Below are positions 9,938 to 15,145 of a DNA stretch of 23,440 nucleotides, in pieces. This DNA comes from a virus. Numbering within the stretch: the first letter of the stretch is position 1; the number at the start of each line of letters is the position of its first letter. The position numbers and the translations under genes are program-made. A model generated the notes under the pieces. It searched no databases. It saw only the letters and a program-made list of their open reading frames with translations, and had not been told where the DNA came from. The stretch covers positions 1-23,440 of the IMG/VR virus record IMGVR_UViG_3300021963_000661; one strand, given 5' to 3'.

Positions 9938-10039
9938 AATCTACCCTCGTCAAAGGTTCGTCGTCACTGAAGTTGGGCGTAGGCAGGCGGGTGACGAGTC
10001 CGCTTTTCCCTCCGTCGAGGTAGCCATGCCCGTTGGAGG

Positions 10040-10267
10040 TTACACGCTTATCGGCTGCTTTTCAACCCGCTCCCACAAGCGCTCAATCTGCTGTTCTTGG
10101 ATGTAAGTCTTGAAATCCAGTGCGGTATTGCTGACTGTTGCAAATGCCAACATGTGCGCCAGGCATGCAGCTTCATAACCGCTGCAGTTTTCTGGAATGG
10201 TCAGACGGTAACGCTCGTCACCCATCTCAATTTCGAGTGGGCCTATGGGTGAAAATTGCTGCGTCAT
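10040..10267 (-). CDS. Hypothetical protein (75 residues)
   Basis: AAGGAG lies 6 bases before the ATG, and the start overlaps the upstream HTH gene by ATGA. The sequence has a beta-like N-terminus (GPLEIEMGDERYRLTIPENCSGYE) and a helical remainder ending QEQQIERLWERVEKQ. No family is recognised. It is the second gene of the leftward early operon. The 102 bases between it and the O/DnaT-like gene contain a 7-base inverted repeat (TCGTCAC at 9961-9967, GTGACGA at 9991-9997) but no convincing terminator. Confidence 0.65.
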   Translation of the reverse strand: MTQQFSPIGPLEIEMGDERYRLTIPENCSGYEAACLAHMLAFATVSNTALDFKTYIQEQQIERLWERVEKQPISV

Positions 10268-10494
10268 GCGAACTCCTTAATGATTTGGTTGTAGCTGTAT
10301 TTCCGACTGGATAGCTGCTCTGCTACTGATGCCAGCAACAAAAGCCGCTTTAGCGGTACCCGGTTGTGCTTGCAGTAGTAATGCGCGGTAGATGGTGCAA
10401 CGCCCATTAGCCTAGCTGCAGCCCTGATCCCGCCCACGCTTTCCATCAGTTCTCGTATCGTCATAGCGTTAGAATAATCGAACGAGTCTAGCAT
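10264..10494 (-). CDS. Cro-like helix-turn-helix regulator
   Basis: This is a 76-residue DNA-binding protein. Residues about 11-48 (MTIRELMESVGGIRAAARLMGVAPSTAHYYCKHNRVP) form a helix-turn-helix of the Cro/C1 type. The start at 10494 is chosen because GAGGGG stands about 5-6 bases upstream. The longer in-frame extension to 10587 would translate the promoter and operator region. As the first gene of the leftward early operon, opposite the rightward early operon, it occupies the classic place of a lytic or lysogenic switch regulator. No second repressor gene is visible in the window, so it may simply autoregulate. Confidence 0.75.
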   Translation of the reverse strand: MLDSFDYSNAMTIRELMESVGGIRAAARLMGVAPSTAHYYCKHNRVPLKRLLLLASVAEQLSSRKYSYNQIIKEFA

Positions 10495-10514
10495 TGCAAC
10501 CCCTCGGAAAACAG

Positions 10515-10557
10515 TTGACAAGGTGTTCGAGATATGAAACACTTGCCTCGGAATCAA
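10515..10557. promoter_or_regulatory. Divergent early promoters with a palindromic operator
   Basis: Rightward: TTGACA (10515-10520), 17 bases, then a poor -10 AACACT (10538-10543). Leftward: TTGATT (complement of 10552-10557), 17 bases, then TATCTC (complement of 10529-10534). Between them is an imperfect 20-bp palindrome, GTGTTCGAGATATGAAACAC (10523-10542), covering both -10 sides. The direct repeat CCTCGGAA occurs at 10502-10509 and 10546-10553. The palindrome is a likely operator for the adjacent HTH protein, which would shut both promoters. Confidence 0.55.
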
Positions 10558-10573
10558 CCAACGGAGTACTGAC

Positions 10574-10744
10574 ATGAGAGATGACAACAGTGAATGGCAG
10601 CAGGTGATGGAAGAGCGCGAGAGGATGACTGAAGAGGCGTATCTCAGAGCGCGTAACGGGGTAGCAAGCCAGGAAGATTGGAGTTGGCTTGCAAGCGAAT
10701 TAGGGCTTACTTTTTACAAAAGGAATGACAATGTTTATATCTGA
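10574..10744 (+). CDS. Small hypothetical protein (56 residues), first gene of the rightward operon
   Basis: GGAG (10563-10566) lies 7 bases before the ATG, and the promoter at 10515-10543 lies directly upstream. The protein (MRDDNSEWQQVMEERERMTEEAYLRARNGVASQEDWSWLASELG) is acidic and helical. Its end overlaps the start of the SSB-like gene. No family is recognised. The position at the head of the early rightward transcript suggests an early takeover or regulatory protein. Confidence 0.65.
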   Translation: MRDDNSEWQQVMEERERMTEEAYLRARNGVASQEDWSWLASELGLTFYKRNDNVYI

Positions 10745-11447
10745 AGGCGGTACAACGGAGCGAGAGTTTAAGCTTGTTCCATCGGGAAGTCACCTAGCAA
10801 TTTGCTATGGGATCGTAGAGCTTGGAACCCAAAAGTATGTCTATATGGGCGAGGAAAAGGCCGGCAAACAGTTGCGGTTGATGTGGGAACTGCACGGCGA
10901 TGACGGCGATGGCGAGCCTCTTGCCTTGTCAGATGGCAGGCCGCTGTCGATCAGCCAGCGCTATACCAAAAGCCTGCACGAGAAGTCAAAGCTGCGGCAG
11001 CACATTGTTTCCTGGAGGGGCGGCAAGGACTTTACGCCTGAGGAGCTAGGTCAAGTCCGCGGCCAGAAGGGTTGGGATATCAGAAGCCTGCTTGGCAAGC
11101 ATTGCATGCTGATGATCAAACACTCGATCAAGGGTGATCGTACCTTTGCAAACGTAGACAACGTCACAACTGTTCCTGCAGTCATCAAAAAGCTCGGTCT
11201 ACCTACCCAACAGAATGAGTCAATCTATTTTAGTTTTGATCATTTCTCTGCTGAAGCGCTAAGTCAAGTCAGTCAAAACCTGCAGAAAACGATCATGCAA
11301 TCGCCAGAATATGAGCGTGCGTGTTCACCAAAACCTGCAGCAATAATTGGAAAGCCGTCAAAACATGCCGAGGCAGAGGATTGGTTTGACAAACACGATC
11401 AGCTTAACGGAATGAAAGGAATCGACGATGAAGATATCCCTTTCTAA
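10731..11447 (+). CDS. SSB-like phage protein with an acidic DEDIPF tip
   Basis: This 238-residue protein begins MFISEGGTTEREFKLVPSGSHLAICYGIVELGTQKYVY, an N-terminal beta-rich (OB-like) block I associate with phage single-stranded-DNA-binding proteins. A helical region follows, and the C-terminus ends EDIPF. E. coli SSB ends DFDDDIPF, the tip that recruits exonucleases, RecO, PriA and others, so the match is functionally suggestive. The ATG at 10731 is preferred because AGGA lies 6 bases upstream; the ATG at 10725 is too close to it. The last 20 bases overlap the next gene. A RecB-type exonuclease further along the same operon is a likely partner. Confidence 0.75.
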   Translation: MFISEGGTTEREFKLVPSGSHLAICYGIVELGTQKYVYMGEEKAGKQLRLMWELHGDDGDGEPLALSDGRPLSISQRYTKSLHEKSKLRQHIVSWRGGKDFTPEELGQVRGQKGWDIRSLLGKHCMLMIKHSIKGDRTFANVDNVTTVPAVIKKLGLPTQQNESIYFSFDHFSAEALSQVSQNLQKTIMQSPEYERACSPKPAAIIGKPSKHAEAEDWFDKHDQLNGMKGIDDEDIPF

Positions 11448-11697
11448 GCCGCGTAAAACGCCCAAGGCTCCCAAAACTTTTTTGGACCCGAGCGTTGTAG
11501 TACCCAAGATTGAAGATCGCATGGCCGAGCGGGTGTGGACCAAGGTCTTTATTTTATTTCAAGTTATTGCAGTCCCGCACTGGACTAAAAGAGGGATTTG
11601 GGTCTTGCCAACTCGGGAGGAGCTGACTGAGCCAGAGTTAATCAACAGGGGCGCTCACGAAACCACCACACTTCTTTGGCCTAGGTATTGGATGTAA
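11428..11697 (+). CDS. Hypothetical basic protein (89 residues)
   Basis: AAAGGA lies 7 bases before the ATG, and the gene overlaps the SSB-like gene by 20 bases. The first 15 residues are basic and Pro-rich (MKISLSKPRKTPKAPK). The middle has a short hydrophobic segment (VFILFQVIAV), and the end is rich in Trp (GIWVLPTREELTEPE, LLWPRYWM). It is too short for a confident membrane call. No family is recognised. It sits between the SSB-like and the RAMP-like genes. Confidence 0.65.
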   Translation: MKISLSKPRKTPKAPKTFLDPSVVVPKIEDRMAERVWTKVFILFQVIAVPHWTKRGIWVLPTREELTEPELINRGAHETTTLLWPRYWM

Positions 11698-11723
11698 TTT
11701 AACTTTTTTATTTGGAGCTATAC

Positions 11724-12293
11724 ATGAAAACAGTATCAGTTGAAATCCGCGGCACATCACCTCTTTTAATCCACCGCTTCGGCGAAGAGGCCGAGCAAGG
11801 CAAAGCAACCCGTCGGGTGAAGGTTGACAACTCAAACCCACGCGATGAGGCCACCAAGGTAGCTTATATCGCCTCTGATGGCACGTTTTACTTCAACGCT
11901 TTTAGTATTCCTGCTTGCATGGCTAATGCCGGTGCTAACCACAAAATGCGCGGCAGCAGGAAGACGCTGAAATTTATTGTCCCCTCTGCGGTTCGCATGA
12001 ACAGCGACTCGGTAACGATCCTAAACGGCGCCGGTCCCGCAAAGGATTTCGAGGTTGATAGCCGGCCTGTGACTATTCCAGCAACCAAAGGTCGGATCAT
12101 GCGCCACCGCCCGCGGTTTGACTGCTGGGGAGCCAAGTTTGATTTGGTCGTTAATGACAACCTGCTCGGCATTGATGATGCACATCGCTTGTTGACCGAG
12201 GCCGGCGAGTACATTGGTATCGGCGATTTTCGACCCGAGAAGCGCGGGCCATTTGGCTGCTTCAGGGTTACAGCGTTTGAAGAGCAGTCGTAA
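11724..12293 (+). CDS. RAMP/Cas7-like phage protein (189 residues)
   Basis: The start at ATG 11724 has GGAG 6 bases upstream; a TTG at 11712 would read through that site. The order of motifs resembles RAMP-fold (ferredoxin-like) RNA-binding proteins such as Cas7: an opening strand VSVEIRGTSPLLIHRF (residues 4-19), a strand-turn-helix YFNAFSIPACMANAG (56-70) in the place of the RAMP IPGSslkG motif, then a basic KGRIMRHRPRFD, and a glycine-rich end YIGIGDFRPEKRGPFGCFRV (163-182). Proteins of this type occur in many phages without known function. No histidine or aspartate arrangement proves nuclease activity. The 610-bp GGYNN repeat array with structured hairpins begins at the base after its stop codon. 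That adjacency is direct observation; RNA binding and a link to the array are inference. Confidence applies to the gene being real; the RAMP assignment is nearer 0.45. Confidence 0.8.
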   Translation: MKTVSVEIRGTSPLLIHRFGEEAEQGKATRRVKVDNSNPRDEATKVAYIASDGTFYFNAFSIPACMANAGANHKMRGSRKTLKFIVPSAVRMNSDSVTILNGAGPAKDFEVDSRPVTIPATKGRIMRHRPRFDCWGAKFDLVVNDNLLGIDDAHRLLTEAGEYIGIGDFRPEKRGPFGCFRVTAFEEQS

Positions 12294-12361
12294 GGTCTGG
12301 TCAGGCCTGGTCTGGCAGGGTTAGGTGCGGCCTGGTGGGGCGCGGTTTGGTGAGGTTTGGA

Positions 12362-12402
12362 ACTGAGAAATCAGTGGGTCGGGTGGTATTCCATCCTTCC
12401 CA
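12362..12402 (+). ncRNA. Array hairpin, copy 1 (GNRA stem plus 28-nt stem-loop)
   Basis: ACTGA-GAAA-TCAGT (12362-12375) forms a 5-bp stem with a GNRA tetraloop. The 28-nt element 12375-12402 then folds on itself: pairs G-C at 2-27, 3-26 and 4-25, a T-T mismatch at 5-24, and G-C, G-C, G-T, T-A, G-C, G-C for 7-22 to 12-17. GTGCTTTTTCA follows. The wobble pair and the GNRA loop exist only on the plus strand. Confidence 0.75.
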
Positions 12403-12470
12403 GTGCTTTTTCAGGCACGGTCTGGCCGGGCGTGGTTGGGTGCCGTTGGGTAGGGTCAGGTAAGGCATGG

Positions 12471-12511
12471 GCTGAGAGATCAGCGGATTGGGCAGCGTGC
12501 TGCTCCTTCCA
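12471..12511 (+). ncRNA. Array hairpin, copy 2 (GNRA stem plus 28-nt stem-loop)
   Basis: GCTGA-GAGA-TCAGC (12471-12484) has the same 5-bp stem length as copy 1, with its outer pair changed from A-T to G-C and a GNRA loop kept. The 28-nt element 12484-12511 differs from copy 1 by paired changes: 4-25 G-C to A-T, 10-19 T-A to C-G and 11-18 G-C to A-T. The T-T mismatch at 5-24 is kept. GTGCTTTTTCA follows, as in copy 1. Confidence 0.75.
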
Positions 12512-12668
12512 GTGCTTTTTCAGGCGTGGCAAGGCACGGCACGGTCAGGCCGGGTTAGGTGCGGTCAGGTTTGGCTCGGTGTGGTGTTGCGCGGCGAGGT
12601 TTGGTCCGGCAAGGCAAGGTGTCGTGAGGTTAGGCGATGCACGGTTAGGTTTGGTGTGGCGAGGGTAG

Positions 12669-12696
12669 TGGGTTGGGCGGCTTGCTGCCTATCCCA
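12669..12696 (+). ncRNA. Array hairpin, copy 3 (28-nt stem-loop)
   Basis: It has the same 28-nt length and T-T mismatch at 5-24 as the other copies. Pairs 4-25 (G-C), 10-19 (C-G), 12-17 (G-C) and 13-16 (C-G) hold, and 7-22 and 11-18 are G-T wobbles. It is preceded by GGGTAG instead of a GNRA stem and followed by GTGCCTTTGACTTT. It is most like copy 4 in its flanks. Confidence 0.7.
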
Positions 12697-12796
12697 GTGC
12701 CTTTGACTTTGGTCGGGTATGGCAGTGTTCGGCTCTGCAAGGCAAGGTTGGGTATGGCGCGTCCGGGCTGGGTCCGGCAGGGTATGGTAAGGGTAG

Positions 12797-12824
12797 TGGA
12801 TAGGGTAGCGTGCTACCCCTTCCA
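12797..12824 (+). ncRNA. Array hairpin, copy 4 (28-nt stem-loop)
   Basis: This is the most regular copy: GGGTAGC and GCTACCC (positions 7-13 and 16-22) pair perfectly, and TGGA pairs with TCCA outside the two-base internal loop. Relative to copy 3, 4-25 is A-T for G-C, 10-19 is T-A for C-G and 11-18 is A-T for G-T. It is preceded by GGGTAG and followed by GTGCCTTTGAATCCA. Confidence 0.75.
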
Positions 12825-12918
12825 GTGCCTTTGAATCCAGCGGGGTAAGGCGGGGCACGGCGGTGCATGGCAACGCAAGGTACGGTATGGTGAGGCACGG
12901 TGAAGATAGAAGGTTAAA

Positions 12919-13707
12919 TTGTTAACTCGGTACTTGATTTGTTTTGGCTGGGAAGGGTTCGGAGACAGGCTGCAGTCTTTGAGCTACTGCATTAATCTGG
13001 CTCGATCACGCAATCGGGTGTTGTTTGTTGACTGGTCTGATCGGATGTGGTCCGGTGGATTTCACGAGTTCTTCGATCTTGTGGATCTGCCGTACACCAC
13101 AGTCCGGCCAGAAGGACCAACTGACCCGAGCATCTTTGAGCACCTGAGAGTGCCAGTTGATGATTGGATTTATGACCTCAAGGAGTATCGAATTGATGAT
13201 TCCTCGCATCGCATTTCGGTTTATCCTGGTGTTGGATTTCGCGCCTACAACTATTATTTGCTAAGTCTGCATTTGCGGTTTAACAAGCAAACGGCTGAAG
13301 AAGTTCAGCGGGAAATGCAGCGCTTAGTGCCCACTGAAATGAAGCTCGTTCATCTGAGGGGCACTGATCGGGCGTGGAAGGCTGAGGATATTCATAAGTT
13401 TGCAAAACAACATGGCAACGTAGGACTGATTTCAGATGATCAGAAAGCTGTTGATGAGTACCTGAAGGTTTCGCCAGCGGTTTCTTTGTGTGCTGCAGAG
13501 ACTGATAGTACGCCGCTGCACAAAGGAAAGGTCACGCGAGAAAAGATTATTCGGATGCTAACGGACTTTTGTTTGCTGAGTCGGTTTGGTGCTGGAGCGC
13601 TCAACGATCAAAGCCTTTTTTATTATGTAGCAAAGATGGTTGATGTTAAGCGATGGTTAGAACCAAGCAAAGAAGAAATTCAGTATGAAGGTTTTTTACT
13701 TCGATGA
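12919..13707 (+). CDS. Fucosyltransferase-like glycosyltransferase (O-FucT/NodZ fold)
   Basis: The protein has 262 residues. GFGDRLQSL (13-21) matches the N-terminal nucleotide-fold loop, and VHLRGTDR (144-151) matches the HxRxTD-type motif I of alpha-1,6- and protein O-fucosyltransferases and NodZ, which bind GDP-fucose. It probably transfers a sugar to a phage or host surface glycan, or modifies a phage component; the acceptor is unknown. The start is TTG (12919-12921), with AGAAGG five bases upstream; no in-frame ATG precedes it. That Shine-Dalgarno follows the GGYNN array after only 4 bases (array end 12903, SD 12908), so the array is the leader of this gene. It overlaps the next glycosyltransferase by ATGA, making a two-gene unit. 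Confidence 0.78.
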   Translation: MLTRYLICFGWEGFGDRLQSLSYCINLARSRNRVLFVDWSDRMWSGGFHEFFDLVDLPYTTVRPEGPTDPSIFEHLRVPVDDWIYDLKEYRIDDSSHRISVYPGVGFRAYNYYLLSLHLRFNKQTAEEVQREMQRLVPTEMKLVHLRGTDRAWKAEDIHKFAKQHGNVGLISDDQKAVDEYLKVSPAVSLCAAETDSTPLHKGKVTREKIIRMLTDFCLLSRFGAGALNDQSLFYYVAKMVDVKRWLEPSKEEIQYEGFLLR

Positions 13708-14384
13708 ACATCCTTGCAATGTCTGCGTTTGGTGACAATCCTCGTTACGTTATCGGTGCATATAAACAAATTTTTTTAGCTAAGAGGTTTTTTCCAGACT
13801 TTGAAGTTTGGTTATTTGTTGATTGCCCAGAAAGATATCGTTGTGATGCAAAAGTAATTGGGATGCCAAACAAAACAGATGGAACTTTTTGGAGGTTTTT
13901 GGCTGGCGTTCAAACGGGCGTGGTTATTTTTAGAGATGTTGATAGCCGCATTTCCATGCGTGAAGTTATAGCAACAACCGAATGGATTTCAAGCGGCAAA
14001 ACACTTCACATCATGCGAGATCACGAAAGGCACAATAGCATTCATAACCCAATTTTGGCCGGCATGTTTGGAATAAGAGGGCCATGGCCATCTTCAATAA
14101 TTGGTCCCTTGATGACTTGTATGCATCGACCATTTGATTATGGAAACGATCAAGGGTTTTTACGCGATCATGTTTTTTCATTGTTAAGTCAGGACGCCTT
14201 GATTCATTCGCTTGATGAGGGTTGGTTCGGCGAAAGTAGGAAGCATTTAGTAAACCCTTACAACTGGATTGGACAGGGATGGGATGAAGATGATCGACCT
14301 ATGTATGCCAATTCAAATGACGGTTTTGTTGGTTTTGACAGGTTTTCTGTGCCCGCACAATTTCGATTCAATGATTATTTTTAG
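13704..14384 (+). CDS. Probable GT-A type glycosyltransferase (226 residues)
   Basis: The N-terminus ILAMSAFGDNPRYVIGAYKQIFLAKRFFPDFEVWLFVD and the FRDVDSR segment (76-82, with D78 and D80 as a DxD-like pair) suggest a GT-A fold enzyme that binds a nucleotide sugar through a metal ion. A later IMRDHERHNSIHNPILAGMFGIRG block and DYGNDQGFLRDH resemble phage and LPS glycosyltransferases of this size. The gene overlaps the fucosyltransferase-like gene by 4 bases, so the two likely act on the same glycan. It is visibly more AT-rich than its neighbours, with many T and A runs, which suggests separate acquisition. The exact GT family is not assigned. Confidence 0.7.
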   Translation: MNILAMSAFGDNPRYVIGAYKQIFLAKRFFPDFEVWLFVDCPERYRCDAKVIGMPNKTDGTFWRFLAGVQTGVVIFRDVDSRISMREVIATTEWISSGKTLHIMRDHERHNSIHNPILAGMFGIRGPWPSSIIGPLMTCMHRPFDYGNDQGFLRDHVFSLLSQDALIHSLDEGWFGESRKHLVNPYNWIGQGWDEDDRPMYANSNDGFVGFDRFSVPAQFRFNDYF

Positions 14385-14392
14385 GAAAATTT

Positions 14393-15145
14393 ATGGAAAT
14401 CAAAACTTACCTTAAAGAATCTGGCCACTGGTATACCCGCTCCGGCGAGCCGATGTATACGGTGAAAGCTAACAACGGCCAGCAACGCAATACAACGCTC
14501 AGGGACGCACGCAAGTACGACCTGGTACCAAGTGTCACAACCATCATAAACGTCGCAGCCAAGCCTGGTTTAGAGGCCTGGAAACAGCAACAGATTCTGC
14601 TAGCCGCGCTCACCCTGCCGAAGGCTGAGAATGAGTCAATTGATGCGTATGCCGAGCGCGTGCTAGAGGATAGTAAGAAGCAAGCTGCAGATGCTCGGGA
14701 TCTAGGCACTGAGATACACGCCAAGGTCCAAGGAGCATTTGAGGGTGGTGCTGACAATGACTTCTCGCGCTCTGTCAAACAACTGCTTGACCAGGCGTAT
14801 GGAAAGCAGACTTGGATAAGCGAGCGCTCTTTTGCTCACAGGCAAGGGTTTGGAGGCAAGGTTGATCTTCACTGCAATGTTGCAGTTGTAGACATCAAGA
14901 CCAAAGCTTTCGGTCCGGAGGACGATCCGGTCGGTTACGACGAACACCTGATGCAGCTAGCTGCCTACCGCGCTGGCCTGATGGGAATCGTATCTGCAAG
15001 CGCGAAATGCGCGAATGTGTTTGTCTCAACAACGCATCCAAACCTGGTGTCTATGTATGAGTGGTCAGATGCAGACGTAACCCGCGGTTGGAAGATGTTT
15101 GAAAGCCTTTTGAAGTTCTGGCAAGCAAAAAATAATTATCAATAG
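14393..15145 (+). CDS. RecB/Cas4-family PD-(D/E)XK exonuclease
   Basis: This 250-residue nuclease shows the full motif order: GTEIH (105-109), GFGGKVD (152-158, D158), VVDIKTK (165-171, the D-x-K core at D167/K169) and a Q-x3-Y motif in LMQLAAYRAG (Q188, Y192). This is the pattern of phage RecB-type exonucleases, which resect double-stranded ends for recombination or degrade DNA. AGGA lies upstream of the ATG. It shares the rightward operon with the SSB-like protein, and together they could form a single-strand annealing or end-processing system. No annealase of Beta or Erf type is recognised in the window. No iron-sulphur cysteine cluster of the Cas4 kind is visible. Confidence 0.85.
   Translation: MEIKTYLKESGHWYTRSGEPMYTVKANNGQQRNTTLRDARKYDLVPSVTTIINVAAKPGLEAWKQQQILLAALTLPKAENESIDAYAERVLEDSKKQAADARDLGTEIHAKVQGAFEGGADNDFSRSVKQLLDQAYGKQTWISERSFAHRQGFGGKVDLHCNVAVVDIKTKAFGPEDDPVGYDEHLMQLAAYRAGLMGIVSASAKCANVFVSTTHPNLVSMYEWSDADVTRGWKMFESLLKFWQAKNNYQ

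Follow-up and report, generated by a model that had tools for sequence, protein, structure and literature searches.

A GGYNN pentamer array beside a vipr gene in an uncultivated phage, a further member of the VIPR system

The window (the whole stretch of viral DNA analyzed here, 23,440 nucleotides, positions 1 to 23,440 of IMG/VR record IMGVR_UViG_3300021963_000661) carries at 12294-12903, on the + strand, a long series of pentamers of the form GGYNN, and the question raised by this locus is what such strictly spaced GGY triplets could serve for. Counting from the formatted sequence, we found 81 in-register pentamers, in five blocks of 13, 11, 28, 16 and 13 units. The initial annotation, which had described eighty units in five blocks with no indel in runs of up to 28 units, was thus correct. 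Its statement that G-G-pyrimidine is kept holds for about 88% of the units (exact GGY in 71 of 81), the 10 others (CGTTG, TGCGC, CGTGA, TGCAC, TGTTC, TGCAA, GTCCG, AGCGG, TGCAT, CGCAA) being exceptions that leave the register intact. The autocorrelation of the region was 0.474, 0.460, 0.437, 0.420 and 0.398 at lags 5, 10, 15, 20 and 25, compared with about 0.29 after dinucleotide shuffling (0.291 at lag 5), with z values of 10.8, 10.5, 7.8, 7.2 and 5.9, so that the periodicity expected at lags 5, 10 and 15 stands far above shuffled sequence. Also, strict GGYNN runs reach 13 units in two places, compared with usually 2-3 and at most 6 for the longest run in 300 shuffles. Tandem Repeats Finder barely detected the array, as its units are too diverse. 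An Rfam search of the array gave no hammerhead and no other known RNA, blastn of 10000-14400 against isolated phages gave no match, and neither the repeat-family lists nor the ORFs contained CRISPR repeats with unique spacers or cas genes. Elsewhere in the window, an int-alpA RNA (RF02996) match lies at 9961-10030 on the - strand (36.8 bits for a gathering score of 35.8), with no integrase evident in the window, and at the contig end (22378-23439, -) an open-ended reading frame encodes a long Gly-Thr repeat (GTGTGT), in which a 6-nt unit recurs in tandem about 63 times.

The array and its neighboring gene are a further member of VIPR (Viral Interference Programmable Repeat), a system described in a 2026 preprint, for example in Escherichia phage SUSP1 and in a Pseudomonas fulva prophage (PMC13142463). 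According to its main text, VIPR associates a phage-encoded ancestral RAMP protein, Vipr (about 20 kDa, single RRM), with vrRNAs made of 9-16 YNNGG repeats followed by a 3' tail; the NN bases of the vrRNA pair with double-stranded DNA, at each step one target base is skipped, usually the one at the codon wobble position, and genes of competing elements are silenced (PMC13142463). We are highly confident that the locus works in this way, its array being transcribed with vipr into vrRNAs that Vipr would coat and that would bind DNA and repress genes of rival mobile elements. The parts of the locus are the following.

11724..12293, +: vipr gene, 189 aa, single-RRM RAMP homologue (36pp_D, phrog_4652, AlphaFold, Foldseek)
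12294..12363, +: guide block 1, 13 GGY units and GGAAC; candidate target in the exonuclease gene of contig L162
12363..12414, +: hairpin 1, G.G mismatch and 2x2 internal loop, -28.3 kcal/mol, z = -5.4, covariation; putative tail or processing element
12414..12468, +: guide block 2, 11 units, one irregular (CGTTG); without credible target
12472..12523, +: hairpin 2, -23.5 kcal/mol, z = -1.5 alone; same structure by covariation
12523..12662, +: guide block 3, 28 units, apparently fused guides 3a (12523-12587) and 3b (12588-12662)
12660..12705, +: hairpin 3, -30.9 kcal/mol, z = -4.6, covariation
12711..12790, +: guide block 4, 16 units, 13 of them GGY; without viral match
12788..12833, +: hairpin 4, -28.1 kcal/mol, z = -4.4, covariation
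12839..12903, +: guide block 5, 13 units, 10 of them GGY; no hairpin of the hairpin 1-4 family after it; without viral match

The first base of the array is the base directly 3' of the vipr stop codon; neither this nor the hairpins between the blocks had been noted in the initial annotation. We placed the start of vipr at the ATG at 11724, the ORF listing giving a TTG start at 11712. In a phmmer search against the PDB, the product matched 36pp_D, "SUSP1 Vipr protein" (E = 1.7e-5), the sole relative of solved structure found by sequence, with which it shares about 23% identity. It also matched PHROG family phrog_4652 (E = 4.9e-22), and a Pfam search returned no family. The AlphaFold model, built on an alignment of 21 relatives, had a pLDDT of 84 and a pTM of 0.79, and its best Foldseek matches were Csm3/Cas7 subunits of type III CRISPR complexes (E = 5e-6, TM 0.5-0.6). 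From this homology and the predicted RAMP fold, gene 11724-12293 encodes a Vipr. The lattice for an oligomeric nucleic acid-binding protein initially suggested by analogy with TRAP is thus sound as to its partner, as a RAMP-fold Vipr adjoins the array and Vipr binds GGY/NN RNA (PMC13142463), and mistaken as to a TRAP-like ring, the partner belonging to the CRISPR RAMP lineage. With tblastn, Vipr found 131 remote records, SUSP1 included; the homologues in isolated phages (Felixounavirus; Gordonia, Pseudomonas and Mycobacterium phages; several host phyla) are mostly annotated as hypothetical proteins.

The association of array and gene was observed well beyond this window. The metagenome search proposed with the initial annotation was run by scanning IMG/VR with ten strict GGYNN units, using no protein information, and returned at least 119 contigs. 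Among the array contigs listed, a Vipr homologue was detected with an iterated profile within the fetched stretch in 85 of 119; in these listed matches array and vipr were on the same strand in 85 of 85, at a median distance of 28 nt and at 500 nt or less in 75 of 85. Neither Vipr nor array occurred in any of 44 control loci. Conversely, a protein search yielded 34 close Vipr relatives, and GGYNN runs were present on the same strand at 23 of the 23 tabulated loci. A pattern scan from raw sequence thus shows independently that GGYNN arrays occur widely among uncultivated phages, mostly beside a Vipr gene.

The 34 listed array contigs without Vipr in the fetched stretch (e.g., L006, L015, L019, L039) carry diverse GGYNN arrays, a few being plain microsatellites (L093, L100, L107, L108); arrays without Vipr nearby could come from shortened contigs, have a more remote Vipr, or be orphan arrays acting in trans. 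Upstream of vipr in two contigs (L149, L143), the array changes phase by 2 nt after GGTAC (GGTACat/gc/ac), which may be the boundary, staggered or single-guide, of another type of VIPR array. In two others (L132, L135) the array, also upstream of vipr, terminates with a distinct hairpin (GGATGGTC/GACCATCC in L132) that a GGTGCA/TGCACC stem may enclose, a candidate tail of another design.

The blocks of the window are separated by four related elements of 45-52 nt (repeat family D3), each of which folds as a hairpin whose stem has a G.G mismatch at a conserved position and, usually, a 2x2 internal loop. When six distinct copies were compared (four from the window, two from the sister contig L128), 96% of the pair cells were standard and five pairs changed on both sides, compared with 43-61% paired and at most one both-side change in slid controls. 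A hairpin of this family follows blocks 1-4 and none of them follows block 5; because the hairpins stand between blocks and are missing after the last one, a role in processing is as likely as a role as tail.

The sister contig L128, whose Vipr is 99% identical to that of the window, carries a homologous array with five hairpins. Its blocks 3 and 4 correspond to the two halves of block 3 of the window and are split there by a hairpin and a degenerate stretch. This comparison shows block 3 of the window as two guides apparently fused by loss of a hairpin; a deletion between GGTGT-type units would do so. Most NN are kept between the two arrays in blocks 1, 3 and 4, with Y switching between C and T, and block 2 differs in its 5' half. 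Also, the two genes located between array and exonuclease gene in the window (12919-14384, +) appear to have been inserted at the array's 3' end, since L128 lacks them and has the exonuclease gene directly after its array; the first of them is weakly similar to NodZ (fucosyltransferase), below cut-off (E = 0.011). Frequent indels inside the blocks of related phages had been expected at first to speak against a spaced array, which was a misjudgment: between the blocks of relatives, indels and phase shifts do occur, as is expected of separate guides. The comparison with L128 shows how guides of such arrays fuse and turn over.

The guides were then read by the rule of the preprint, in which each NN stands for two target bases and one target base is skipped between units (PMC13142463). 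The NN of block 3a (GT AA AC AC CA CG TA GC CA TT TC GT GT) give the target GTnAAnACnACnCAnCGnTAnGCnCAnTTnTC, which decodes as V-[KN]-T-T-[HQ]-R-Y-A-[HQ]-[FL]-S-V-V, the active-site motif of tyrosine integrases (KTTQRYAHLS). Nine units searched against viral contigs had four matches, all four in integrases and in the sense codon frame. Ten units searched against 84,980 genomes had 19 exact matches (18 loci), 19 of 19 in integrases and again in the sense codon frame, where about 0.5 would be expected by chance in random sequence of that size; the backwards pattern, used as a control, had none. Unit 11 was matched as well in 4 of the 19 integrases (Acidovorax, Methylobacillus, Comamonas and Comamonadaceae records), and units 12-13 in none of the 19. 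These matches are not independent, being homologous, and amount to about one event; with the cluster so counted and six guides tested, the chance of this decode is roughly 0.01. The surroundings of one integrase target (L198, L209) revealed no obvious prophage. Block 3a most likely targets the active-site codons of tyrosine integrase genes, as judged from these matches.

Block 1 (CT CA CT CT AG TA GC CT GG GC TT GA TT) had, with nine units, one viral match, located in a PD-(D/E)XK-like exonuclease of contig L162 at "LQLLSYALGALD" (QxxxY motif), and with the L128 version of the block 11 consecutive units match this exonuclease, "NNLQLLSYALGALD", including two that were not used in the search. 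L162 looks like a phage, as its ORFs comprise a terminase-like gene and replication genes. The exonuclease of the window phage itself (phrog_298) is not matched by this guide. With up to 3 mismatches allowed, block 1 had no match in 349 genomes belonging to the same order as the Comamonadaceae target genome. A RecB-like exonuclease gene of a rival phage is most likely the target of block 1, and the joint chance of this match and the integrase decode is, by a rough estimate, about 1e-4 after multiple testing. These two candidate decodes, a guide spelling an integrase active site and another matching the exonuclease of a rival phage, come from a clade remote from the studied systems.

Blocks 2, 3b, 4 and 5 have no credible target. 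The matches of block 3b (17 contigs) were rejected because the flanking units mismatch and the sense frame usually contains a stop, those of block 2 because the flanks fail, and blocks 4 and 5 had no match in viral contigs. Against the own genome of the phage no guide had a good match, the best being 17 of 22 for block 2 and 16-19 of 24-32 for the others. With skip lengths of 0-3, all IMG/VR guides searched against 1.3-1.7 Mb of local DNA showed no excess over shuffled guides, this set being too small and the comparison underpowered. Taken over all guides, TA is underrepresented among the NN pairs (observed/expected 0.71), as it would be at codon positions 1-2. The last two bases of the units, at first taken to vary freely, are better described as guide sequence, depleted in TA and, in blocks 3a and 1, decoding in codon frame.

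By analogy with the relatives studied in PMC13142463, we infer transcription, ribonucleoprotein formation, DNA binding and repression for this locus as follows. Array and vipr would be co-transcribed on the + strand and give several vrRNAs. Vipr subunits would be arranged along the RNA, each step taking up one GGYNN unit, with GGY seating the protein, and each NN would pair with two bases of a double-stranded DNA target, one base being skipped, which in coding targets would be the codon wobble position. The bound complex would then block transcription and repress genes of competing mobile elements. The hairpins between blocks may be vrRNA tails, processing sites, or both.

Other explanations of the array were considered. 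The TRAP target is a series of 11 NAG triplets (about 11 (G/U)AG) bound by TRAP, and the strict spacing of conserved triplets would suit an attenuation target of this kind, or a general RNA-binding lattice on which an oligomer counts GGY and NN are mere spacers. However, the partner is a RAMP and not TRAP, NN are non-random (TA being depleted as in codons) and decode in codon frame to mobile-element genes, and the NN of blocks 1, 3 and 4 are largely the same in L128, where C and T are exchanged at Y, so that we regard this explanation as very improbable. Even less probable is an element acting as DNA, such as replication origin iterons, a packaging site or a PAM-like decoy for CRISPR. The position of the array between early genes and its G-richness on one strand would agree with it, but the array lies on the vipr strand in 85 of 85 contigs among the matches listed, wherever the pair sits, the units are not a common binding sequence, and the hairpins covary as RNA pairs, G-U changes included. 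We give as little credit to a simple microsatellite or coding repeat, of which the array has only the tandem period of 5, since unit diversity is high, the period is not divisible by 3 and the array is linked to vipr.

Within VIPR, the preprint assigns vap genes to types II-VII in its text, calls vap "typically" present, and reports that a single small protein with a single guide RNA is enough (PMC13142463). No conserved vap gene was found here: besides vipr, no gene is conserved across the 23 loci within about 5 kb, and the other families common to many Vipr loci are solely ORFs antisense to or overlapping vipr and arrays. The upstream genes 10725-11447 (phrog_862) and 11428-11697 were rejected as vap because they are absent from other Vipr loci. 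As vap is only "typically" present, we did not take its lack as defining, and because the types with vap are II-VII, this clade may be the remaining type of the preprint; the count of six vap genes against seven types likewise suggests a type devoid of vap. The hairpin-punctuated, vap-less architecture is not described in the main text of PMC13142463. We would tentatively go further, and consider it possible, if somewhat doubtful, that this architecture extends beyond that text as a whole: a vipr without vap, whose guides are set apart by covarying G.G-mismatch hairpins acting at once as tail and processing site, and guides that fuse and recombine via their own repeats and read conserved catalytic motifs (integrase, RecB nuclease), one vrRNA hitting a whole gene family despite synonymous changes.

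Among known systems, the TRAP target shares with the array spaced conserved triplets and a protein oligomer as partner; here, however, the triplet is GGY and not NAG, the spacing is fixed at 2 nt, the spacer bases are informative and the protein is unrelated. Class 1 CRISPR-Cas complexes (Csm3/Cas7 with crRNA) share the RAMP fold and a protein oligomer on a periodic guide whose pairing is interrupted at regular steps, whereas here a single phage-encoded protein is found, the guide is interrupted by GGY every 5 nt, and no CRISPR repeats, spacers or cas genes were seen. In contrast to the VIPR systems of the preprint, the array begins directly after the stop codon of vipr, whose product is only about 23% identical to that of SUSP1; instead of the pseudoknot tail or hammerhead ribozymes reported for VIPR (PMC13142463), G.G-mismatch hairpins stand between the blocks; and unlike in typical VIPR, one block is a fused one of 28 units and no vap is conserved within 5 kb. 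The repeat number would agree with the 9-16 of a vrRNA for the blocks of 13, 11, 16 and 13 units, the block of 28 being two blocks in L128, and the 3' tail may have as counterpart the covarying hairpin after blocks 1-4, though not block 5. As in VIPR, a Vipr RAMP protein adjoins an intergenic GGY/NN array. The blocks of 11-16 units, most of them followed by a structured element, resemble the vrRNAs of that system, and the two candidate decodes point to genes of mobile elements, the skipped base coinciding with the wobble position.
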